The notes under the pieces were generated by a model that was given only the letters and a program-made list of their open reading frames with translations, did not search any database and was not told the DNA's origin. Shown piece after piece: positions 13,795-62,610 of a stretch of DNA of 64,000 nucleotides. The stretch is from Rosa chinensis (taxonomy: Eukaryota > Streptophyta > Magnoliopsida > Rosales > Rosaceae), in assembly GCF_002994745.2 (NCBI RefSeq), contig NC_037090.1:21440001-21504000 (forward strand), in the 5' to 3' direction. Position 1 is the first letter of the stretch; each line of letters begins with the position of its first letter. The position numbers and the translations under genes are program-made.

Positions 13795-13916
13795 TGTTGA
13801 GAATATATACATCCCACATGGGAAAAATGGGACCTTGCTTATGGCTTTATAAGGGTTTGGGCCACTTCATCCATAGCCAATTGGTTTTGGATGTGAACCC
13901 CAGATTACTTTTATCA
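13795..13916 (+). repeat. 5' LTR of the TRIM
   Basis: 122 bp, TG...CA ends, preceded by GTGAG and followed by the primer-binding site. Confidence 0.9.
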
Positions 13917-13964
13917 TGGTATCAGAGCCAGGTTATCCCACGTGTGCATGCCTCGCGGCCACAC

Positions 13965-16414
13965 TGTAATGCCCCGTACCTTAAAGTCTTTATTAGTTAC
14001 TTTTTACCGTGGTTGACCGAGGAGTGACTTTTTCTTTAGTCCGGTAAATTAGAAAATTTATTTGAGATTGTCGTAGAATACGAAAAATCGAGTTCGTGGA
14101 CACGTAGTTTGTTTAAATTGGATTTATATCGGAAAAGTTATGACCAAAAATAGAAATTTCTATTTTTGGCATGGCTTTTTGTTTGTGAGCTTCTAATTGT
14201 GGAAGGAGGGCTTATTAAAACAGATGGAAGAGAGAGAAAAGGGAAAGAATCAAAAAAAAAAAGAGAGAGAGAGAGAGAGAGCACGGGTAGAACCCGAGTC
14301 ACCCCCCTCCCCCTTTTTTCTTTTCTTTTCGCCGTCGCACTCCTCCGGCGAATTCGTCGCCGTCCGGCCACCCCAAGACCCATCGTTGGGCACGGCGTGA
14401 TCCTCTCTTCCTTCTCCTTCTAGCTATGTAAGTATTTCACCTTGGGTAGCTTTGGTTTTGGAGATATGAGGAGAATTGCAGAAATGGAAAAAAATGGATT
14501 TTTTCTTTGATCTCAGTTTTCCGGCGATTACCGGTCGAATTTCTTTGGGTTTTGGTTGTTGGGGAAGTACTGAATGTATTCCTAACCTTGTTGCAGCTCG
14601 TTTTGATCGGTGGAGGAAGTTTTGAAGGTGTTTGAGACTGTGAACAGTACCGTGAACAGTAACTCTCGAATTCTTGGGTTCTTGTTTGATTTTTCTGGAT
14701 ATTCCTACTTGAATTTGGTTGTTGTTGCAGGTTTAGAGATAGTTGTGTGGGTTATGAAGTTGATTTTGGAATAAATGGGTTGATTGGAATTGAATTTAAT
14801 CTTTAAGTTTGTGTTAAATTTGAAATTGTTGGATATTGAGGTTTTGTTGGTTTTGGATTGTTGAACATGGTTGTTGGATTTGTCATGTTGGTAGTGTTGG
14901 GTGAATTCTCTTGTTAAAGGACTATTGTGAATTATTTGTTAGGTAGTAGAGTGAATTTGAGAAGGTGGAGTTGGAATCGTGAATTAGAAAAAGGGAAAAA
15001 TTAAGAATGATTGTGGAAATTTTTGGAAGGATTTATATTTTCGATTGGTGGTAATTTGTGATGAAGGAGGTGAGATTAAATTGATTTAGTTATCGAAAGG
15101 TTCTTGTGAAGATTTAAATTAAGTGAAGTCCTTGATTGATTGAGAATCGAATTAAAAATCGGTTGAGTAGTTTGAGTTAGAGGGCATTGAGATTTTAAGG
15201 AATTATAGAATTAATCCCAAATTAAAGTGTGAGAGTTTTATAACAATTTGTGAATAACGGATGCTTATTCAGAGGGAAATGAGTTGTTTTTGAGAGTATT
15301 TCCTTATTATGGTTAATTATATCCATGCAATTGTGACAGGACGTACTGAGCCCTCGAGCGAGGAGGACACAGGCAGGCAGCAGGGTTAGCTGCGGGATTC
15401 ACTTGTGAGTGGACCTTTATTTTTATTTAAATAATGCATGCAGCATGGTATTAAGTTTTGAAATGTGATTTTGTGGAAAGAAAAGGTTTAAGAAGGAAAC
15501 AGTTGACAAGGAGGCCAGTTTTGGCGCATGCGTATCTTGCCTAGTTGGCAGTCCCTTCTAGGTAATAGTCTGGTCGGCAGTCCCGTCCAGACTACAGCTC
15601 GGTTGGCAGTCCCATCCGATGCGTCATCTGGTTGGCAGTCCCTTCCAGATGACTTGAGGTAGTTAGTCGGCAGTCCCGTCTACTACCTGTGGCTAGTTGG
15701 CAGTCCCAACTAATCACCGCCTCCTACTCCGGTTGGCAGTCCCTTCCGATGCGTCATCGGGTGGCAGTCCCTCCCCGAAGGCATGAGATGCCTAGGAAGC
15801 AGTCCTTCCTAGTCATCAAATGAGTTTCATGGAAAAAGGATTGAGTTGGAACTTCATAGGGTTCAGCTGCATGATGGTTTTGTTAAAAAGAGAAATGGGG
15901 AAGCATACCATAAATTGTTTTGATTCTAGTTTCGGTTTTGTCCACTCACTCTAATGGATTTTATATGTTTTCCCCTGGGCCCTTCGTTTTCAAATGCCCA
16001 GATTTCAGATTAGCAGAGATTGCGTCCAGGCTCAAGGACTTTGGAAATCAGCGCTTCCGTTTTTGTCCGTAGGTTATTACTTAACCTACCTTGTATGATA
16101 TCGGCTTAGTTTAGTATTGCTCTGATAAACCTTTTCTTTTAAGTTTGATGAATGTTGTTGTTTGGTTTGTTGTTGCTTACGGAGGATTATGTGGGGATTT
16201 GAACTTTCCGGATGTAATTTATGTGCTTGGATTGTAAATTCGATATAGTAGGTTGAGTAGAAGTTATAGTTGAAATCATGTCCAGGTTTGTGAAATTATG
16301 GGTAGCCCATTTTTAGGGGAGGTTCTGCCGAATTTTCGGTAGGATTTCACTTAAAGTGGGCCCCGCAGGCTCGTATCCAGGTAAGTGGGGCGATTCCTGG
16401 GTCGGGTCCTGTCA
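13965..16414 (+). mobile_element. probable long solo LTR nested in the TRIM
   Basis: 2,450 bp beginning TGTAATGCCCCGTACC and ending GGTCCTGTCA, flanked by the 5-bp duplication CACAC (13960-13964 and 16415-16419). TG...CA ends, a 5-bp duplication and the absence of coding sequence fit a solo LTR of a long-LTR Ty3/gypsy lineage. It contains a direct GTGAACAGTA repeat (about 14640-14662) and the hairpin array at 15540-15812. Alternatively it is a different non-coding LTR-type unit; no second copy is in the window to settle this. Confidence 0.7.
15540..15812 (+). repeat. array of nine stem-loops with constant loop and variable stems
   Basis: Eight successive loops carry GGCAGTCCC and the ninth carries only CAGTC. 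Each loop is enclosed by a different self-complementary stem: CCTAG/CTAGG (15540), TAGTCTGG/CCAGACTA (15566), TCGG/CCGA (15599), GTCATCTGG/CCAGATGAC (15623), AGGTAGTTAG/CTACTACCT (15657, one bulge), GTGGCTAG/CTAATCAC (15689, one G-U, one mismatch), CGG/CCG (15730), TCGGG/CCCGA (15747), CTAGGAAG/CTTCCTAG (15792). Loops 1-7 are 13 nt, usually TTGGCAGTCCCTT or TCGGCAGTCCCGT. Stems change on both sides together, which a simple minisatellite would not do. Confidence 0.85.
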
Positions 16415-16485
16415 CACACGGGCTCCACGTCATCCAAAAGTTTTCCACGTGTATGGCTTGAAAATTCGCCACACGTGCGGGGGCG

Positions 16486-16607
16486 TGTTGAGAATATATA
16501 CATCCCACATGGGAAAAATGGGACCTTGCTTATGGGTTTATAAGGGTTTGGGCCACTTCATCCATAGCCAATTGGTTTTGGATGTGAACCCCAGATTACT
16601 TTTATCA
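16486..16607 (+). repeat. 3' LTR of the TRIM
   Basis: 122 bp, followed by GTGAG at 16608-16612. Confidence 0.9.
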
Positions 16608-18340: not shown

Positions 18341-19302
18341 ATGGCTATTACACAGTCCGATATCAACTCACTTCTGAGCATGATTACTGTGAAATTGAGT
18401 GAGAACAATTTTGTTAAGTGGAGCTTTCAATTCTAGTCAGTGTTGGAAGGGAATGATCTCTTCAGCTACTTTTTTATGGTAGCTATCCTTGTCCACCTCG
18501 GTTTGTCCTGACTGAGGAGGGATATGTTACTAATGAGGTTACTCAGGCCTATAAGCAGTGGAAAAAGATTGATAAGGCACTCCTTGGACTTCTCATGGCT
18601 ACTTTAGATGATGAGATTATGGAAATCATTGTTGGCAGCAAGTCTTCCCATGAAGCCTGGCTTGCCTTGCAAGAGAGATTCTCAACTGTGTCAAGAGCCA
18701 ACATCATTCAGCTTAAGACTGACCTGCAGACTATTAAGAAAGGTGCTGATTCTATTGATAAGTATCTTCTTCGGATTAAGCATGCCGGAGATCAGTTAAG
18801 CTCAGTTGGTGTTCATATTGTTGATGAGGACATAGTTGTTGTCACTCTCAATGGCCTTCCGGAGGAGTACTCAATGATCAAGACTGTTATTCGTGCTCGA
18901 GATAGTTCTATTTCTCTCAAGGATTTTAGAGCACAACTCTTAGCTGCTGAGAGAGATATTGAGGCACAGTTTACTCCACATAATTCTATGACTGCCATGG
19001 CTGCTCGAGGGACCAACTTCAGGACCAACAACAACAGTTCTTCAGACTACTTCAACAATGACAAGGGCAAAGGAGTGTGAAATGGCAAACAATCCAACTG
19101 GAGCTCTAATAAACAGTATACTCAAGGAGATAATCAAGGTTTTAAAGGGTACAATGCCACTGAGTGTCAGATTTGTAATAAGAAAGGGCACACTGCTTCT
19201 ACCTGTTATCAAAACTCTGAGTGCAGTTACTGTCACAAGAAAGGTCATATTGCCAGTAAATGTTTTCAGAATCCTGCTTCACCTGATTTCAAAGGCAACA
19301 AT
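18341..19302 (+). pseudogene. copia-2 gag, interrupted
   Basis: Starts MAITQSDINSLLSMI at 18341 (retrotransposon gag N-terminal type). It is broken by TAG at 18434-18436, a frameshift at a T6 run (18470-18475) and TGA at 19078-19080. Between the lesions the UBN2-like gag region is well preserved (18595-19080, LALQERFSTVSRANI). After the TGA the frame carries two CCHC knuckles, CQICNKKGHTASTC and CSYCHKKGHIASKC, and runs in frame into the pol ORF with two more. The normal form would be one gag-pol polyprotein. Confidence 0.88.
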
Positions 19303-22300
19303 TTGGAGTACAGGAATAATATTGGTCCTTCTCCTGAGTGCCAAATCTGTGGCAAGAAGGGGCATACTGCAGTCAATTGTTTCTACAGAAATGATATCCC
19401 TGTCAATCATCCATCACACTCAGTGATTATCTGTCAAATTTGTGGATTGAAAGGTCATGCTGCTCTTGACTGTCACCATAGAAGCAATTATGCTTATCAG
19501 GGTGCAAAACCACCCACTACTCTTACAGTTATGAGTGCTCATTCATCTGGATCATGTTCATCTGGATCTTCTGGAGCATGTTCATCTGGATCTCAGGTTA
19601 ATGAAGTATGGATTGGTGATACTGGTGCCACTCACCATATGACTTCTGATCTCAGGAACCTCACCATTGCTCATCCTTTTGAGTCTTCCAAGTCGATTAC
19701 CATTGGCAATGGTGAAGGTTTGCATATCAAACATATTGGCTCTGCAATTATTACACCTGCTGATCATACATTCAAGCTTAACAATGTGTTACATGTTCCT
19801 CATTTGGCAGTCAATTTACTATCATTTAACAAACTCTGCAAGGACAATCATTGCTTTATTGTCATGGATGATGTTGATATATGTGTGCAGGACAAGGCAT
19901 CAAAGGCACTACTGTACAAAGGAAAGAGTAATGGGGAAGGACTCTTCTTGTTCAAAACACCAAATCTCACACAACCTTATAATCATTCTCACACTGCCTT
20001 TATTGGATCAGCTGTCAAGTCTACAATCTGGCATCAAAGACTTGGTCATCGATCTCCTGATATTGTTTCAAGGATGCTATCTCAGTCTAGGATAACATAC
20101 AATAATGATACTTCTACTCATATGTGTGTTGATTGCCTTAGTGGTAAGATGCATAGGTTACCATTCTCTGAGTCTGTATCTCAATCTGTATCACCTTTTC
20201 AAAAAATTCATAGTGATCTCTGGGGTCCAGCTCCATGCTTGTCTGTTGAAGGCTTCAAGTTTTATGTAACCTTCATTGATGACTATACCAAATTTGTATG
20301 GATATATCCACTCATCAATAAATCTGATACTTTCTCCACTTTTGTTAAGTTCTATAACTTTGTGAGTACTCAGTTTCATATCCTTATTCAATCTCTTCAA
20401 ACTGATGGAGGAGGTGAGTTCAATAGCAAGGCATTTCAATCTTTTCTTGATAGCAAAGGGATTCTGCACCTCATTACATGTCCATATACTCCTCAGCAGA
20501 ATGGGGTTGCAGAACGCAAAAATAGACACCTTGTTGAAACATGCATTTCTTTGATGTCTGCTGCTAAGTTCCCTAAACCATTCTGGTTCCATGCTGTGGC
20601 ACATTCTTCCAATCTCATTAACAGGATGCCATGCAAATCTCTTCTGTACCACTCTCCATATTTTAAGCTCTTTGGTGTGCTACCTGATTTGAAGTCTCTC
20701 AAGGTATTTGGTACTGCTTGTTATCCTTATCTTAGACCTTATTCTCATGATAAACTTGATCCAAGGACTACTATGTGTGTTTTCTTGGGATATGCTCTAG
20801 GCTATAAGGGTGTTTTCTGCTATAACATTGAACATCACAAGTTATGGATGTGTCGACATGTGATTCATGATGAATCTACTTTTCCTTTTAAGTGTCCTCC
20901 TTCTCCACCTTGTGCTTCTGCTCCTTCTTCACCATCATCTGTTGCTTTTTCTACCTCACCTTCACCTTCACCTGCTTCTCTTCCTACTGCTTCTATCTCC
21001 TCTGGTCATTCCTCCATGTTGCCTGTTCTCACTTCTGATCAGTTACAAGTTGTTCTTCCTTGTGAGCCTGTTTCTCAGCCTTCTGCTGCTATCCCAGCCT
21101 TGGCTGATGGGGGCGGTGTTAGTAGAGACGCAAGTTCTAGCTCATCAGAATCATCTGATTCTATGACTAATGGTGATATATCTAATAATGATCTGCCTAG
21201 TGATAGTGATAATGGTGGTCTTCCACAAGAGCTAGTGTTTGTTGAAGATCAAGCTCAGGCTTACAATAATCACTCTATGTTAACTAGAGCCAAGAATGGA
21301 ATTGTGAAACATAAGACATTTCAAGACTATTGTGCTTATTCCTGTGTGGTTCAACAAGGTCTTATCGATGAACTTGCCTATTTTAGTGGCTTTTCTGCTA
21401 TCATGGATATACAAGATCCTATTGAACCAAAATCGTTTAGAGCTGCTGCAAGTATACCTGAATGGGATGAGGCTATGTATGAGGAGATTGATGCTTTGTT
21501 GAAACAAGGTACTTGGGAACTTGTCCCTTTACCTAAAGCAAAGAACATTGTTGGGAGCAAATGGATTTACAAGATCAAGAAAAATCCAGATGGATCAATT
21601 TCAAGGTATAAAGCCAGACTTGTTGCTCAAGGATTTAGTCAAGAAAAAGGATTGGATTATGATGAAACTTTCAGTCCTGTGGTGAGACATAGTACTGTTA
21701 GGCTTGTAGTTGCTCTTGCTGCAATGAACAAATGGGAGTTGCGACAATTGGATGTTAAAAATGCTTTTCTGCATGGTGATCTTAGGGAAGAAGTATACAT
21801 GGTACAGCCACAGGGCTTTGTTGACTCTAAACATCCTGATCATGTGTGCTTGTTGAAGAAATCACTCTATGGTCTAAAACAAGCTCCTAGAGCTTGGAAT
21901 GAGAAGTTTACTAATTTCCTGCCAGCTCTAGGATTCCAGTTTTCACATTATGATCCTAGCCTGTTTGTCAAGCATTCTGAAAAAGGTGTGATAATCTTAC
22001 TTCTGTATGTAGACGATATTGTCATAACTGGGTCAGACAAGGAGAGTATTGAAGCTGTGATTACTGAGTTAAGTGAAGCTTTTGATATGAAGGACTTAGG
22101 TTCATTGTCTTATTTCTTGGGAATCAATGTTCAATACAAGACTACTGGAATTCTTCTATCTCAAGAAAAATATGCTAAGGAGTTGATTGCAAAAGCTGGC
22201 TTAGAAACATGTAGAGAGTGTGTATCTCCTTGTTTACCACATGTTCAGTTATTGAAAAATGATGGTAATCCACTGGCTAATCCTACACTTTACAGGAGCA

Positions 22301-22974
22301 TTGTTGGAGCACTCCAATACTTGACATTTACAAGACCTGACATTGCATTCGCTGTCAATACTGTGTGTCAGTTTATGTCAACACCAACTGATGTACATTT
22401 TGCTTCTGTAAAAAGGATTCTCAGGTATATTCAAGGCACTCTCTCAAAAAGAATGTTTTACAAGTATGGCAATGGTGTTCCATATATTAATGCCTATTGT
22501 GATGCTGACTGGGCTGGTGAAGTTAACCATAGAAGATCAACCACAGGGTTTATTGTTTATCTCGCTCACTGTCCTATATCTTGGCAATCAAAGAAACAAG
22601 GATCTGTGTCAAGAAGTTCCACAGAAGCTGAGTATAGAGCATTGGCTAATACGACTGCAGAAATCTCCTGGCTGAGGCATGTCTTATGTGATCTGCATAT
22701 TCGAATTCCTGCACCACCTCTACTAAAATGTGATAATCTTTCTGCACTTGCTCTTTGTTCAAATCCTGTGTTTCACTCAAGAATTAAGCATTTGGACAAT
22801 GACTTTCATTTTGTGCGTGAAAGAGTTCAGAGGCAGGATTTATTACTTCAGTATGTTCCAACTGAGCAACAGACTGCTGATATCTTCACTAAGGGATTGC
22901 ATAGTCCACTGTTCAAATCTCATTGCTCCAATCTCAGTCTGGTATCCCCTACTGAGATTGAGGGGAGGTGTTAA
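19303..22974 (+). CDS. copia-2 polyprotein: knuckles, protease, integrase, RT, RNase H
   Basis: 1,223 aa without interruption. In order it has two CCHC knuckles near the N-terminus and the protease active site DTGATHH (Asp106). The GAG-pre-integrase zinc site follows (WHQRLGH...CVDC). The integrase triad is Asp305, Asp368 and Glu404, with the classical 35-residue D-E spacing. A Ser/Pro-rich linker runs from about residue 530. RT carries YVDD at residues 902-905 and SLYGLKQAPRAW. RNase H carries YCDADWAG (Asp1067) and SSTEAEYRAL. These are the replication enzymes of a copia element. The first Met at 19303 is only where the open frame begins: upstream sequence in the same frame is gag after the TGA. 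All catalytic residues that can be checked are present. Confidence 0.92.
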   Translation: MEYRNNIGPSPECQICGKKGHTAVNCFYRNDIPVNHPSHSVIICQICGLKGHAALDCHHRSNYAYQGAKPPTTLTVMSAHSSGSCSSGSSGACSSGSQVNEVWIGDTGATHHMTSDLRNLTIAHPFESSKSITIGNGEGLHIKHIGSAIITPADHTFKLNNVLHVPHLAVNLLSFNKLCKDNHCFIVMDDVDICVQDKASKALLYKGKSNGEGLFLFKTPNLTQPYNHSHTAFIGSAVKSTIWHQRLGHRSPDIVSRMLSQSRITYNNDTSTHMCVDCLSGKMHRLPFSESVSQSVSPFQKIHSDLWGPAPCLSVEGFKFYVTFIDDYTKFVWIYPLINKSDTFSTFVKFYNFVSTQFHILIQSLQTDGGGEFNSKAFQSFLDSKGILHLITCPYTPQQNGVAERKNRHLVETCISLMSAAKFPKPFWFHAVAHSSNLINRMPCKSLLYHSPYFKLFGVLPDLKSLKVFGTACYPYLRPYSHDKLDPRTTMCVFLGYALGYKGVFCYNIEHHKLWMCRHVIHDESTFPFKCPPSPPCASAPSSPSSVAFSTSPSPSPASLPTASISSGHSSMLPVLTSDQLQVVLPCEPVSQPSAAIPALADGGGVSRDASSSSSESSDSMTNGDISNNDLPSDSDNGGLPQELVFVEDQAQAYNNHSMLTRAKNGIVKHKTFQDYCAYSCVVQQGLIDELAYFSGFSAIMDIQDPIEPKSFRAAASIPEWDEAMYEEIDALLKQGTWELVPLPKAKNIVGSKWIYKIKKNPDGSISRYKARLVAQGFSQEKGLDYDETFSPVVRHSTVRLVVALAAMNKWELRQLDVKNAFLHGDLREEVYMVQPQGFVDSKHPDHVCLLKKSLYGLKQAPRAWNEKFTNFLPALGFQFSHYDPSLFVKHSEKGVIILLLYVDDIVITGSDKESIEAVITELSEAFDMKDLGSLSYFLGINVQYKTTGILLSQEKYAKELIAKAGLETCRECVSPCLPHVQLLKNDGNPLANPTLYRSIVGALQYLTFTRPDIAFAVNTVCQFMSTPTDVHFASVKRILRYIQGTLSKRMFYKYGNGVPYINAYCDADWAGEVNHRRSTTGFIVYLAHCPISWQSKKQGSVSRSSTEAEYRALANTTAEISWLRHVLCDLHIRIPAPPLLKCDNLSALALCSNPVFHSRIKHLDNDFHFVRERVQRQDLLLQYVPTEQQTADIFTKGLHSPLFKSHCSNLSLVSPTEIEGRC

Positions 22975-24408: not shown

Positions 24409-25098
24409 TCAATAATTAAAGTAATCTACTGAGCACTTCTCCGTCTGAAAAGTACTAACTGAATTCCCATTCTGGTTCAAAGGAACCTTCAAGTCACATT
24501 CAATTCTAGGCTTGAACTTTCCAGTCTTGATTCTACCCAACTTGAACCGAATCCTCAAATAAAGCTTCATCTCAATCTCGTAAACCCCTGCACTTTTCTG
24601 TTGATTAAACTCCTCAAGCAAGTTGGATCCAACAATCAATTGCTGTCCCTGAAACACTGGGTTCAAAACGTTTGTGGTTTTGTGACCTTGGTAAAATGGC
24701 GTGAGGGTGACCGTACCAAACCTCTGGCCCTCGTAAAGAGCTCTGGCTTCAATGCGATCGTAGTAGACACCGATCTTCTTGTTGGGGTTTCGAATGGTGA
24801 GGTTGAGGGCTAGGTTGTAATGCAGGTTGCTATCGGTGGAGAAGTTGAATTGGGTGAGCGTGGCGTCGGTGACGTGGAACTTGACTTTAGTGGGGCGGAC
24901 TATGAGCCAGAAGACGAGGAAGGCTAGTCCCATGAAGACGACTGCTGCGAAGATGATTTTGAAGACGAGGCTGAAGATGCAGCTGCAGCAGCAGCCGAGG
25001 GGGCCGCCGCCGCGGCTGGGACGGTGGTAGGATTTGCTGGCCGGGACTGAGGGGCCGTAGTATGCCCCGTTTAAGTGGGCTTCTTCTGTCTCTGCCAT
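24409..25098 (-). CDS. NHL10: NDR1/HIN1-like protein (NHL10/YLS9 type), copy 2
   Basis: 229 aa, intronless. N-terminus MAETEEAHLNGAYYGPSVPA with the CCCSC cluster, one membrane helix at about residues 42-67, then the LEA_2 domain with NPNKKIGVYYD and YQGHK. Possible glycosylation sites are NFS and NLT. It differs from copies 3-5 by the MAETEE start in place of MSEK and by an extra terminal Tyr (DYFNY). The family is plasma-membrane anchored with the C-terminal domain facing the apoplast. All core family residues are intact, so it is probably functional. Its downstream spacer received copia-2, the TRIM and others. Confidence 0.93.
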   Translation of the reverse strand: MAETEEAHLNGAYYGPSVPASKSYHRPSRGGGPLGCCCSCIFSLVFKIIFAAVVFMGLAFLVFWLIVRPTKVKFHVTDATLTQFNFSTDSNLHYNLALNLTIRNPNKKIGVYYDRIEARALYEGQRFGTVTLTPFYQGHKTTNVLNPVFQGQQLIVGSNLLEEFNQQKSAGVYEIEMKLYLRIRFKLGRIKTGKFKPRIECDLKVPLNQNGNSVSTFQTEKCSVDYFNY

Positions 25099-25396
25099 AT
25101 ATGGAAGCTGAAACGGAGCGAAGGATATGGAAGGTGTAGAGTATAATCAAAACTGCTAAATGATCGAATTGGATGAAGAAGATAAGAAGTATTGGAAGTG
25201 AAGAAGGTGAAGCGAGGTTTATATAAGGGGTAGAGAGGGAGTGGGAAATGAAGAAATTGGTGTGCTGCGTGCTTTTGTATACCAAGGAATCAGGAAATAC
25301 TAAGGACGCGGGTTGAGAAAATCAATAACGCGTTGAGTGTTTATAGGAGAAGAATTCAATATCCCGGCGTACCTTCCATGGCGCCATCGGGTCGTA
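25099..25396 (-). promoter_or_regulatory. promoter of NHL10 copy 2
   Basis: TATA box TTTATATAA at 25218-25226 (about -120). CGCG boxes ACGCGG at 25306-25311 (about -208) and ACGCGT at 25328-25333 (about -230). The conserved block TTCCATGGCGCCATCG is at about 25374-25389. Confidence 0.55.
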
Positions 25397-34069: not shown

Positions 34070-34753
34070 TCAATTGAAGTAATCAATGGAGCACTTCTCA
34101 GTCTGAAAGGTACCAACTGAATTCCCATTCTGGTTCAAAGGAACCTTCAAGTCACACTCAATTCTAGGCTTGAACTTTCCGGTCTTGATTCTACCCAACT
34201 TGAACCGAATCCTCAGATAAAGCTTCATCTCAATCTCGTAAACCCCTGCACTCTTCTGTTGATTAAACTCCTCAAGCAAGTTGGATCCAACAATCAATTG
34301 CTGTCCCTGAAACACCGGGTTCAAAACGTTTGTGGTTTTGTGGCCTTGGTAAAATGGCGTGAGGGTCACCGTACTAAACCTCTGGCCCTCGTAAAGAGCT
34401 CTGGCTTCAATGCGATCGTAGTAGACACCGATCTTCTTGTTGGGGTTTCGGATGGTGAGGTTGAGGGCAAGGTTGTAGTGCAGGTTACTATCTGTGGAGA
34501 AGTTGAATTGCGTGAGCGTGGCATCGGTGACGTGAAACTTGACTCTGGTTGGCCTGACTATGAGCCAGAAGACAAGGAAGGCTAATCCCATGAAGACGAC
34601 TGCGGTGAAGATGAGCTTGAAGACGAGGCCGAAGATGCAGCTGCAGCAGCAGCCGATGGGACCTCCGCCGCGGCCGGGGTGGTGGTAGTCTTTTGTTGGC
34701 GGGATTGATGGGCCGTAATAGGCTCCATTCAAGTGGGCTTGTTTCTCTGACAT
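34070..34753 (-). CDS. NHL10: NDR1/HIN1-like protein (NHL10/YLS9 type), copy 3
   Basis: 227 aa. MSEKQAHLNGAYYGPSIPPT start; Cys35-37 and Cys39; membrane helix about residues 41-66; LEA_2 domain with NPNKKIGVYYD at 103-113 and YQGHK at 135-139; sequons at Asn84 and Asn98; C-terminus CSIDYFN. Basic residues RPTR after the helix fit a type II-like single-pass topology with the C-terminal domain outside. It is nearly identical to copies 2 and 4 across the second half, indicating recent duplication or gene conversion. All family positions are intact. Confidence 0.94.
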   Translation of the reverse strand: MSEKQAHLNGAYYGPSIPPTKDYHHPGRGGGPIGCCCSCIFGLVFKLIFTAVVFMGLAFLVFWLIVRPTRVKFHVTDATLTQFNFSTDSNLHYNLALNLTIRNPNKKIGVYYDRIEARALYEGQRFSTVTLTPFYQGHKTTNVLNPVFQGQQLIVGSNLLEEFNQQKSAGVYEIEMKLYLRIRFKLGRIKTGKFKPRIECDLKVPLNQNGNSVGTFQTEKCSIDYFN

Positions 34754-35038
34754 GGAAGCTGGCTAGCTGAGATGAAGCCGAAGTAAATAGAATGTATACT
34801 TAAAAGTGTTGAAAGAATTGAATTGGGTGAAGAAGATTGGAAAATGAAGAGGGTGAAGCCATGTTAATATAAGGGGGTAGAGAGGGAGTGGGAAATGAAG
34901 AATTTGGTGGAACGCGTGAATTTTGGTACAATAAGGAAATACTTCGAGGACGTACGCGTGGGGCGGGTTAACGCGTTAGTTTGTGTTTTTAAGAGAAGTG
35001 TTCGTTCCTCGCAGTTTCCATGGCGCCATCGAGTCATA
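34754..35038 (-). promoter_or_regulatory. promoter of NHL10 copy 3
   Basis: TATA-like TTAATATAA at 34864-34872 (about -115). CGCG boxes ACGCGT at 34954-34959 (about -201) and 34971-34976 (about -218). The conserved block TTCCATGGCGCCATCGAGTC is at about 35016-35035, its cleanest version in the window. Confidence 0.55.
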
Positions 35039-46420: not shown

Positions 46421-47104
46421 TCAATTGAAGTAATCAATTGAGCATTTCTCAGTCTGAAAAGTACTAATTGAATTTCCATTCTGACTCAAAGGAACCTTCA
46501 AGTCACATTCAATTCTAGGCTTGAACTTTCCGGTCTTGATTCTACCCAACTTGAACCGAATCCTCAGATAAAGCTTCATCTCGATCTCGTAAACCCCAGC
46601 ACTCTTCTGTTGATTAAACTCCTCAAGAAAGTTGGATCCAACAATCAATTGCTGTCCCTGAAACACCGGGTTCAAAACGTTTGTGGTTTGGTGGCCTTGG
46701 TAAAATGGGGTCAGAGTGACCGTACTAAACCTCTGGTCCTCGTAAAGAGCTCTGGCTTCGATGCGATCATAGTAAACGCCGATTTTCTTGTTGGGGTTTC
46801 GGATGGTGAGGTTGAGAGCGAGATTGTAGTGCAGGTTGCTATCGGTGGAGAAGTTGAATTGTGTGAGAGTGGCATCTGTTACGTGGAACTTGACTCTGGT
46901 GGGGCGGACTATGAGCCAGAAGACGAGGAAGGCTAACCCCATAAAGACAACTGCGGCGAAGATGAGCTTGAAGACGAGACCGAAGATGCAGCTACAGCAG
47001 CAGCTGAGGGGACCTCCGCCGCGGCCGGGGCGGTGGTAGTTCTCTCTCGGCGGGATTGATGGGCCATAATAGGCTCCATTCAAGTGGGCTTGTTTCTCTG
47101 ACAT
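46421..47104 (-). CDS. NHL10: NDR1/HIN1-like protein (NHL10/YLS9 type), copy 4
   Basis: 227 aa with the standard layout: MSEKQAHLNGAYYGPSIPPR, CCCSC cluster, one membrane helix (about residues 41-66), LEA_2 domain with NPNKKIGVYYD. Two changes set it apart: YEDQRF instead of YEGQRF, and YQGHQ instead of YQGHK at the otherwise invariant motif. SNFLEEF replaces SNLLEEF. The C-terminus CSIDYFN is kept. It is otherwise intact and expected to be expressed. Confidence 0.93.
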   Translation of the reverse strand: MSEKQAHLNGAYYGPSIPPRENYHRPGRGGGPLSCCCSCIFGLVFKLIFAAVVFMGLAFLVFWLIVRPTRVKFHVTDATLTQFNFSTDSNLHYNLALNLTIRNPNKKIGVYYDRIEARALYEDQRFSTVTLTPFYQGHQTTNVLNPVFQGQQLIVGSNFLEEFNQQKSAGVYEIEMKLYLRIRFKLGRIKTGKFKPRIECDLKVPLSQNGNSISTFQTEKCSIDYFN

Positions 47105-47356
47105 GAAAGCTGAAGTGAAGGAAAGAGAATATAGACTAATACGTACAGCTGAATGAATTGAATCGGGTGAAGAAGAATGAAATTTGAAGGAGATGAAGTG
47201 AGGCTTTTATAGAGGGGTAGAGAGGGAGAGAGTGGGAAACGAGGAATAATTGTGCTGCGAAATACGGTGAGTAACGCAAACTGACGCGTTAGAAATCGAG
47301 GCAGCGTGTGGATGGGTTCTTTCTTTCCCGGTAGATTCCCTGTCCCCCGTCGAGTC
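47105..47356 (-). promoter_or_regulatory. promoter of NHL10 copy 4
   Basis: TATA-like CTTTTATAG at about 47204-47212 (about -105). A single CGCG box ACGCGT is at 47284-47289 (about -180); the partner position has decayed to AACGCA (47273). GCAGCGTGTGGATG is at about 47300-47313. The CGAGTCATTATTTGC block is at about 47349-47363, lacking the clean GGCGCCATGG core. Confidence 0.5.
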
Positions 47357-52672: not shown

Positions 52673-53356
52673 TCAATTGAAGTAATCAATGGAGCACTTC
52701 TCAGTCTGAAAAGTACCAACTGAATTCCCATTTTCGTTCAAAGGAACCTTCAAGTCACACTCAATTCTAGGCTTGAACTTTCCGGTCTTGATTCTACCCA
52801 ACTTGAACCGAATCCTCAGATAAAGCTTCATCTCAATCTCGTAAACCCCTGCACTCTTCTGTTGATTAAACTCCTCAAGCAAGTTGGATCCAACAATCAA
52901 TTGTTGTCCCTGAAACACCGGGTTCAGAACGTTTGTAGTTTTATGGCCTTGGTAAAACGGCGTGAGAGTAACCGTACTGAACCTTTGCCCCTCGTACAGG
53001 GCTCTGGCTTCGATGCGATCGTAGTAGATGCCGATCTTCTTGTTGGGGTTTCGGATGGTGAGGTTGGCAGCGAGATTGTAGTGGAGGTTGTTGTCGGAGG
53101 AGAAGTTGAACTGGGTGAGGGTGGCATCCGTAACGTGGAACTTGACTCCGGTTGGCCTGACTATGAGCCAGAAGACGAGGATGGCTAAGCCCAACAAGAC
53201 AACTGCGGTGAAGATGAGCTTGAAGACGAGACTGAAGATGCAGCTGCAGCAGCAGCTGAGGAGACCTCCTCCGCGGCCGGGGCGGTGGTAGGTCTCTCTT
53301 GGCGGGACGGATGGGCCGTAGTAGGCTCCATTCAAGTGGGCTTGTTTCTCTGACAT
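52673..53356 (-). CDS. NHL10: NDR1/HIN1-like protein (NHL10/YLS9 type), copy 5
   Basis: 227 aa with the standard layout: MSEKQAHLNGAYYGPSVPPR, CCCSCIF, membrane helix about residues 41-66 with a distinctive LLGLAILVFW stretch, then RPTGVKFHV (Gly where the others have Arg or Lys). The LEA_2 domain has NPNKKIGIYYD and YQGHK. NFSSDNN resembles copy 1 rather than copies 2-4 (NFSTDSN), suggesting mosaic ancestry or conversion among copies. C-terminus CSIDYFN. Intact. Confidence 0.94.
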   Translation of the reverse strand: MSEKQAHLNGAYYGPSVPPRETYHRPGRGGGLLSCCCSCIFSLVFKLIFTAVVLLGLAILVFWLIVRPTGVKFHVTDATLTQFNFSSDNNLHYNLAANLTIRNPNKKIGIYYDRIEARALYEGQRFSTVTLTPFYQGHKTTNVLNPVFQGQQLIVGSNLLEEFNQQKSAGVYEIEMKLYLRIRFKLGRIKTGKFKPRIECDLKVPLNENGNSVGTFQTEKCSIDYFN

Positions 53357-53745
53357 GGAAGCGGAAGCGGAGTGAAAGATATATCAAATGTATATAGAAA
53401 ACCGGTGAATGAATTGGGTTGGGTGGAGAAGAATGGAAAATCAAGAAGGTAAAGCGGGGTTTATATAAGGTATAACAGCGTGTGGGAAATCATGAGGATC
53501 AACAGCGGATCAACATTGCCAATTTGGTGTGCTGCGTGTTTTAGTATAATACGGAAGGACGCGTGGTGTTGTGTTAAGAAAATCAGCACGCGGTTTCTTA
53601 GAATTTAGAAGGTTATCTCTTTCGACCGGTCTTTTTCTGTGAGTCATTGTTTCACGGGTAAGCCTTCATCGGAGACGTAGCAGCGTGTGGATGTGGTTTA
53701 TGGAACTTTTCGGGTAGCCTCCATTGCGCCATGCATTGAGTCATT
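53357..53745 (-). promoter_or_regulatory. promoter of NHL10 copy 5
   Basis: TATA box TTTATATAA at 53460-53468 (about -108). CGCG boxes ACGCGT at 53559-53564 (about -203) and ACGCGG at 53588-53593 (about -232). GCAGCGTGTGGATG is at about 53681-53694. The block CCTCCATTGCGCCATGCATT is at about 53718-53737, followed by GAGTCATTG. Confidence 0.55.
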
Positions 53746-61872: not shown

Positions 61873-62505
61873 TCATACGCTAACCTTGCATCGCTGGACC
61901 AGCTGGTACTTGACAGCGTTTTCTCCAACCACAATTCCGGTAGTCTTGGCTCCCAAAGTTATGAAAGCCGGACATCTCACATAGAGATGGTACTTCCCGG
62001 TGATAAATGTTCCAATCTTCCATCTCACCCGCCCGTCAATCTTGATCAACAAAAGTACGGTGCCGGCGGCCTGGTCCTGTCCGAGAGCAATGGAGTTGTA
62101 GGGAGCGATGGGGACGTTGGTGCCGTAGATGAAGGGCGACCAGATGTTGACGTCCTTGTGGCCTTGGTAAGTGGGCGGGATTAGGGTTGAGAAGGTGATC
62201 TGCTGGGCGCGGTAGGTGGCATAGACGTCGAGCTTGTCGTAGTAGATTCCGAGCTTCTCGTTGGGGTTGCGAGAGGAGATGGTGACCTGGAAGCTGGAGG
62301 AGAAGACGTTGGGGACGGTGTTGTTGAAGTTGTAGACGGTGACGTCCTGGAGGATGAACCGGGGCTTGGACGGCTGGAGGATGGCCCAGATGATGAGGAT
62401 GGTGACGAGGAGGATGAAGTTGAAGATGAGGAGCCCAGCGCAGCAGCGGCGGATTCTCTCTCTCCTCTTTTTGTGGCCGTGGTTGCCGCAGTCTTTTGAA
62501 GACAT
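61873..62505 (-). CDS. NDR1/HIN1-like protein, NHL1/NHL12 type
   Basis: 210 aa, intronless. The N-terminus MSSKDCGNHGHKKRRERIRR is strongly basic, followed by one membrane helix (about residues 22-44). The LEA_2 domain has FILQDVTVYNFN, NPNEKLGIYYD (80-90), PPTYQGHKDVNIWSPF (111-126) and a KYHLYVRC segment (171-178). The MxxKDCGNHG start and the YQGHKD-WSPF block are typical of Arabidopsis NHL1 and NHL12, so it is a separate subfamily from the five NHL10 copies. Unlike them it lacks the CCCSC cluster and the GAYYGPS N-terminus. NNT at residue 61 is a possible glycosylation site. It is intact and shares its strand with the others. An older family member beside the array, rather than a recent duplicate. 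Confidence 0.93.
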   Translation of the reverse strand: MSSKDCGNHGHKKRRERIRRCCAGLLIFNFILLVTILIIWAILQPSKPRFILQDVTVYNFNNTVPNVFSSSFQVTISSRNPNEKLGIYYDKLDVYATYRAQQITFSTLIPPTYQGHKDVNIWSPFIYGTNVPIAPYNSIALGQDQAAGTVLLLIKIDGRVRWKIGTFITGKYHLYVRCPAFITLGAKTTGIVVGENAVKYQLVQRCKVSV

Positions 62506-62610
62506 GGTGGTGGAGGAGGACTGTACTGGAAGTTTAAACAGAGGGAGAGGGAGTGGTTTCTAGCTAGCTCCGGTTATTGCGAGCAGTTGACTGTGGCCAA
62601 GTTTGGTTTG

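Follow-up and report, generated by a model that had tools for sequence, protein, structure and literature searches.

The window analysed here is a stretch of 64,000 nt of the Rosa chinensis genome (NC_037090.1, positions 21,440,001 to 21,504,000), in which retroelements lie among genes of an NDR1/HIN1-like (LEA_2) cluster. These genes are all on the minus strand (28-810, 24409-25146, 34070-34762, 46421-47206, 52673-53383 and 61873-62559); the one at 34070-34762 was assigned with Pfam and a protein database, the others by resemblance. The protein of a neighbouring gene has its nearest matches by identity in Rubus (89%), Argentina (87%) and Fragaria (84%). A Ty1/copia element lies at 18457-22974; a single in-frame TGA (19078-19080) separates its gag frame from its pol frame, which starts with four CCHC-type zinc knuckles recognised by eye. 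A search of public viral contigs with the ORF of this element gave no match.

The element of interest is a 2450-bp LTR on the + strand (13965-16414), reading TGTAATGCC...CCTGTCA. It has the TG...CA ends of an LTR retrotransposon and is flanked on both sides by the 5-bp target-site duplication CACAC (13960-13964 and 16415-16419). As no internal region follows it, it is a solo LTR, and the initial annotation was thus correct in placing the hairpin array described below inside such an element. The solo LTR interrupts a TRIM element (13795-16607, + strand; target-site duplication GTGAG, PBS-like TGGTATCAGAGCC), whose two 122-bp LTRs (13795-13916 and 16486-16607) differ by one mismatch. It is therefore younger than a TRIM that is itself young, and little decay would be expected since its insertion. 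A TATA-like TTATTAAAA at 14212-14220 could be the LTR promoter, and the sole AATAAA of the LTR, at 14770-14775, a poly(A) signal, both being recognised by motif; with this AATAAA as poly(A) signal, the array would fall in U5.

The LTR was identified through a single full-length copy, examined piecewise, with arrays at C2:4441390 and C2:4448723. In this copy, the PBS TGGTATCAGAGC lies two bases past the LTR and a purine tract precedes the 3' LTR. Its open frames match Retrotrans_gag, RVT_1, RT_RNaseH, Integrase_H2C2 and SH3_Tf2-1, the RT-RNaseH coming before the integrase, and the array-bearing element is thus a Ty3/gypsy element. The integrase C-terminus gives a Chromo match of 21.1 bits, which stays below the cut-off of 25.1. 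Membership of the Tekay chromoviruses is likely. A PDB search with the gag piece of this copy returned no match, and a protein search with one frame spanning the array returned no candidate.

The array consists of nine tandem hairpins at 15537-15817 on the + strand (GC 57%, linkers of 0-12 nt), which share the core GCAGTCC and differ in their stems. Eight of them contain an exact copy of GGCAGTCCC, with starts from 15547 to 15763, all on the + strand, and neither strand of the window holds any other; the ninth carries AGCAGTCCT instead, at 15798-15806. In the predicted fold, the units are unit 1 (15537-15565), unit 2 (15566-15594), unit 3 (15597-15622), unit 4 (15623-15653), unit 5 (15658-15687), unit 6 (15689-15717), unit 7 (15730-15748), unit 8 (15753-15782) and unit 9 (15787-15817), and units 3-5 can be aligned with units 7-9 respectively, as the result of an old duplication. 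Unit 7 is the weakest, with a stem of only 3 bp below its mismatches. A scan for repeated cores whose arms are varied and self-complementary finds this array as the sole match in the window (score 6.6).

In the predicted fold, every unit has a stem topped by two closing pairs and a CAGUC loop, usually with a pyrimidine mismatch between the stem and the closing pairs. In most units this interruption is a U·U mismatch followed by a more variable position, paired or mismatched, and the two closing pairs are nearly always G-C. Unit 9 retains the CAGUC loop, and its second closing pair is A-U instead of the G-C of the other eight units. The longest uninterrupted helix is 9 bp. The initial annotation had proposed that pairs inside the repeated motif leave a CAGT tip: inner pairs do close the loop in the predicted fold, and what remains at the tip is the pentaloop CAGUC, not CAGT. 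It had also described the stems as self-complementary within a unit, which they are, and as unrelated between units, which they are not wholly, as the inner pairs follow a CTRG-like pattern with compensating changes and units 3-5 resemble units 7-9.

Folding and arm permutations both confirm that nine consecutive hairpins combine a nearly fixed loop with self-pairing stems. When each left arm is folded with its own right arm, the energies sum to -113.2 kcal/mol, against -51.4 expected with arms swapped between units, and only 4 of 200,000 arm permutations equal the own-arm value. At offsets 5-13, 52 of 81 positions form Watson-Crick pairs, a count reached by 21 of 200,000 permutations, and shuffling the letters within arms never does as well as the real arms (0/2000). 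The 280-base array as a whole folds at -117.3, compared with -88.0 ± 5.0 for 200 shuffles. In a gapless alignment of the nine units, 76.9% of 108 cells are paired (shuffles 60.8 ± 2.9, none of 500 as high), and partners slid out of register pair in 30-53% of cells. Both sides have changed at 10 of the 12 pair positions, which one of 500 shuffles matches, and 20 further pair types are seen versus 16.2 in shuffles (31/500).

Pairing is not equally firm along the array. Across four folding contexts, the mean probability of pairing in the own register is low for unit 7 (0.00-0.69) and unit 8 (0.01-0.23), and with folding limited to a span of 200 nt the pairing of unit 1 is lost too. The right arm of unit 7 and the left arm of unit 8 can form an alternative hairpin, CCGATG/CATCGG, at 15736-15770, which competes with both units. 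Between the duplicated units 3-5 and 7-9, the core GCAGTCC is unchanged at all 21 positions and the remainder has changed at 14 of 60 (Fisher p 0.016). The pair TCTGG/CCAGA of unit 4 corresponds to TCGGG/CCCGA of unit 8, which in that register is a compensated change from T-A to G-C; the duplication alignment has a gap there, and this change is not proof alone.

The array is abundant in the host genome. Its 515 Mb contain 1243 array candidates, 40 of which were scored, all being 98-100% identical. Three exact cores in a row are matched 3301 times (1645 forward, 1656 reverse), versus one match, in reverse orientation, with a reversed control (0 forward). Among the matches listed, at about 100 places that all lie within 16 Mb of the start of contig C1, there are 30 arrays with about 3.3 matches each, from which we estimate about a thousand arrays in the genome. 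The analysis covered 29 of these 30 arrays, which are 71-96% identical to that of the window and have 4-12 cores each, allowing one mismatch per core. Unit number varies: two arrays (L095 and L098) have 12 cores and the other sampled arrays 4-10. In one array (L116), an insertion of about 0.5 kb separates the third core found from the fourth. Because three exact cores were the selection criterion for the 29 copies, these are biased toward intact loops; among their loops beyond the matched triple, 153 of 179 are intact. Two loci (L135 and L133) are left out of all counts.

A flank motif with up to three mismatches is found 203 + 196 times in the host genome, versus once for the control. The 30 flank-motif loci taken are exact matches, hence close kin of the window LTR, and 29 of them hold at least four cores (one mismatch allowed); the copy L149 has the exact flank motif and no array core within 650 nt.

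Comparison of copies supports selection on a structure of RNA or single-stranded DNA, as the initial annotation proposed. Independent mutation of loops and stems was looked for in the host copies, and pairing was found instead: after removal of two duplicates from 30 rows, 2164 of 2404 cells (90.0%) are paired in the 28 distinct arrays, compared with 59-73% for slid partners. Cells in which both sides have changed number 24, against 10.1 ± 2.4 in shuffles (0/500), and fall at 11 pair positions, against 6.9 (9/500). In all 30 arrays, the window included, the arms of a unit give better folds with each other than after swapping, and at most 9 of 5000 arm permutations match in 28 arrays; the weakest arrays, L123 (167/5000) and L124 (101/5000), have five units each. 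In a set of 135 distinct units, each allowed a single core mismatch, 57 have G-C and 52 A-T at offset 8, 89 have T-A and 27 C-G at offset 9, and 106 have T·T at offset 6.

Divergence of the flanking LTR sequence leaves the arrays recognisable. We compared with the window a remote set of 19 distinct arrays (from 20 copies) whose upstream mismatch exceeds 40%; L116 was omitted from this and the following set because its array is split. Here the loop differs at 27 of 845 positions (3.2%), a figure that favours intact loops as the matched triples were retained, and the closing pairs at 32/674 (4.7%), the stem at 250/2400 (10.4%), the linker at 114/654 (17.4%), the downstream flank at 954/2613 (37%) and the upstream flank at 1528/2759 (55%). 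The two mismatch positions together differ at 177/674 (26%), above the stem. This comes mainly from offset 5, which switches between T·T, C-G, T-A and C·T; at offset 6, T·T persists in units 1-5 and 7 (107 of 113 ungapped cells). Where both sides of a pair have changed, 26 of 39 cells still pair; where one side has changed, 101 cells are broken and 90 still paired, many pair-breaking single changes being as expected for decaying copies.

A second comparison used 155 array pairs, non-independent, with alignable flanks that differ by 5-35%, and with the sampling triple removed. The loop differs by 5.3%, the closing pairs by 10.1%, the mismatch positions by 21.7%, the stem by 12.2%, the linker by 9.9%, the downstream flank by 11.0% and the upstream flank by 20.5%. 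The loop is thus the most constrained part in both sets, whereas the stem is less changed than the downstream flank in the remote set only (12.2% versus 11.0% in the alignable set).

The two LTRs of single elements served as a control against mutation bias. We used 18 same-strand pairs of arrays, about 6.2-7.4 kb apart, which we infer to be both LTRs of one element. Their 75 differences, 51 of which are carried by two pairs, fall in the loop (5/800), closing pairs (6/640), mismatch positions (2/640), stem (20/2538), linker (5/390) and outside the array (37/7792). After insertion, neither loop nor stem thus seems to have any visible protection. As arrays are conserved between lineages and unprotected within LTR pairs, the array would have been kept while the elements were active, a contrast that selection in the active lineage predicts. 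Nine of the 18 presumed pairs have no substitution over about 700 nt, and the family has therefore been active recently. Recombination moving the array between families would be a second way to obtain conserved arrays with diverged flanks.

All these results show that the array is a conserved structural module in the LTR of a recently active Ty3/gypsy family, and it is very probable that a structure in RNA or single-stranded DNA has been selected. Which strand carries it is not decided by energy or wobble counts, which do not clearly favour + strand RNA: the reverse complements of the arrays fold slightly better (mean -10.06 versus -9.54, p 0.017), and, at G-C pairs, wobble changes predominate at 32 pair positions and A·C changes at 22 (68 and 32 cells, non-independent, a weak difference). 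We assume the + strand, since transcription of the LTR would yield it.

Among the explanations other than protein docking, the array could act in a long 5' leader by steering ribosomes, through shunting or the shielding of upstream AUGs, or in splicing or export, without binding Gag. The presumed leader of about 2.2 kb contains 41 ATGs, of which the array contributes 5. Some 600 nt separate the array from the end of the LTR, and in the full-length copy the PBS follows the LTR. The transcription start and poly(A) sites that delimit this leader are motif guesses, and to our knowledge such functions rarely require a constant loop on freely varying stems. We consider a leader role unlikely, if the least unlikely of these alternatives. 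Slightly less credible is a role in DNA, as sites for a host DNA-binding protein or as cruciforms that shape LTR transcription or chromatin. The lack of a clear strand preference would fit it; however, a 9-mer site that is not palindromic would not account for flanks that change freely and are yet self-complementary, and the helices, 9 bp at the longest, are short for cruciform extrusion.

The pairing could also be a product of palindrome mechanics without function, one arm being copied from the other by template switching during DNA replication or reverse transcription. Template switching is documented for RNA hairpins, where it gives compensated stem changes, in the accessible part of PMC8794818, and the array does rearrange, as the 4-12 cores per copy and the alignment of units 3-5 with 7-9 indicate. 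It resembles template-switch-made hairpins, as presented there, in its compensated changes and differs from them in retaining a U·U mismatch and a constant loop. Copying of one arm from the other should also repair T·T between paired positions, and its retention at offset 6 argues against simple palindrome repair; the constant loop and an array that outlasts its flanks are left unexplained, and the presumed LTR pairs show the array without protection. This origin thus appears improbable, a shade more so than a role in DNA. We give still less weight to stem-mediated dimerisation, in which each unit would open and pair with its counterpart in another RNA molecule to form an in-register extended duplex: the stems are self-complementary and unit-specific, but the constant loop would serve no purpose in it, and the LTR has no 6-mer complementary to the loop. 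Two roles raised in the initial annotation can be set aside as unlikely. Dimerisation by loop-loop kissing would call for a self-complementary loop, and GGCAGTCCC contains no 4- or 6-nt palindrome; a microRNA precursor has a stem of roughly 20 bp or more, and the longest helix of 9 bp speaks against any small-RNA precursor.

The initial annotation knew of no equivalent of this array, and our searches agree: Rfam has no match in the window at gathering score, and our searches of open-access papers, which leave out most subscription papers, found no such array. The array may nevertheless sit unremarked in an LTR that is already annotated. The enod40 repeats are different repeats, as far as PMC10578108 presents them, and the one open-access text containing GGCAGTCCC together with 'retrotransposon' concerns mouse muscle by its title. 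We screened 72 outside loci, from public viral contigs (8, plus 21 found with the LTR-start motif, of which 7 had their surroundings inspected) and species genomes (43); the repeated cores in them are not arrays of this kind, and one further search of public viral contigs gave no locus. In the window, the model R1 reports five of the nine units, at 33.7-41.9 bits, and every one of these matches lies in the array; overlapping neighbours are not reported. In the 72 loci it gives 11 matches at E <= 1, the best of which (24.7 bits, L023:5739-5876) is a 17-bp tandem repeat with CGGCAGTCC at the end of a bacterial MAG contig, with no hairpin array. The hairpin-array scan places four of the 72 loci just above threshold (5.5-5.8), with other cores.

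Several known systems come close to the array. In STNV and MS2, many packaging-signal stem-loops with a short loop motif are read by one protein, according to the part of PMC3662417 available; the array is similar in its many stem-loops with a common short loop motif, and differs in that 4-12 copies are adjacent in an LTR instead of being spread through the genome, with a docking role that is putative only. Like Retand and the hypervariable 3' UTRs (titles cited in PMC6317226), it is made of repeats in plant LTR retrotransposons; unlike those repeats, to judge by titles, its units differ in sequence and yet covary.

The retroviral psi/leader usually has a few distinct cis-acting hairpins. The array is comparable as a set of cis-acting hairpins in LTR-element RNA, likely upstream of the PBS, and differs as a tandem array with one loop. 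By prediction and pair counts, it consists of repeated stem-loops with a common apical motif, as a multivalent packaging signal does.

If the structure is indeed selected, protein docking is its probable purpose. The array would act in the RNA of the element, where each LTR sequence is present at least once, and all the hairpins would display an identical apical motif, to be bound by one RNA-binding protein. This protein would read the apex, made of the fixed loop and the mismatch, and need only a helix below, so that stem sequence would be free to change while pairing holds. Four to twelve copies would provide avidity, and the differing stems would keep each arm with its own partner, limiting mis-pairing between units. 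In an LTR element, Gag would naturally be this reader: granted docking, the partner is rather likely to be the element's own Gag, which would make the array a packaging or assembly signal, with a host RNA-binding protein as second choice.

Taken as a whole, a conserved hairpin module serving as a putative multivalent docking array in the element's RNA is the best explanation that we can offer, and one to which we give a little less than even chances. More tentatively, the array could represent an undescribed class of cis-acting RNA, with 4-12 tandem hairpins that have freely covarying stems and, for the most part, a pyrimidine mismatch, G-C closing pairs and a CAGUC loop. This class would be common to LTR families that have diverged within a single plant genome, and would form a putative multivalent platform on which Gag docks for genome packaging. 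We know of few packaging or assembly signals in plant Ty3/gypsy elements. The array is a compact, repeated and testable candidate for such a signal, with an estimated thousand or so natural variants in one genome, and a clear case of a structure that is retained while its sequence and surroundings change.
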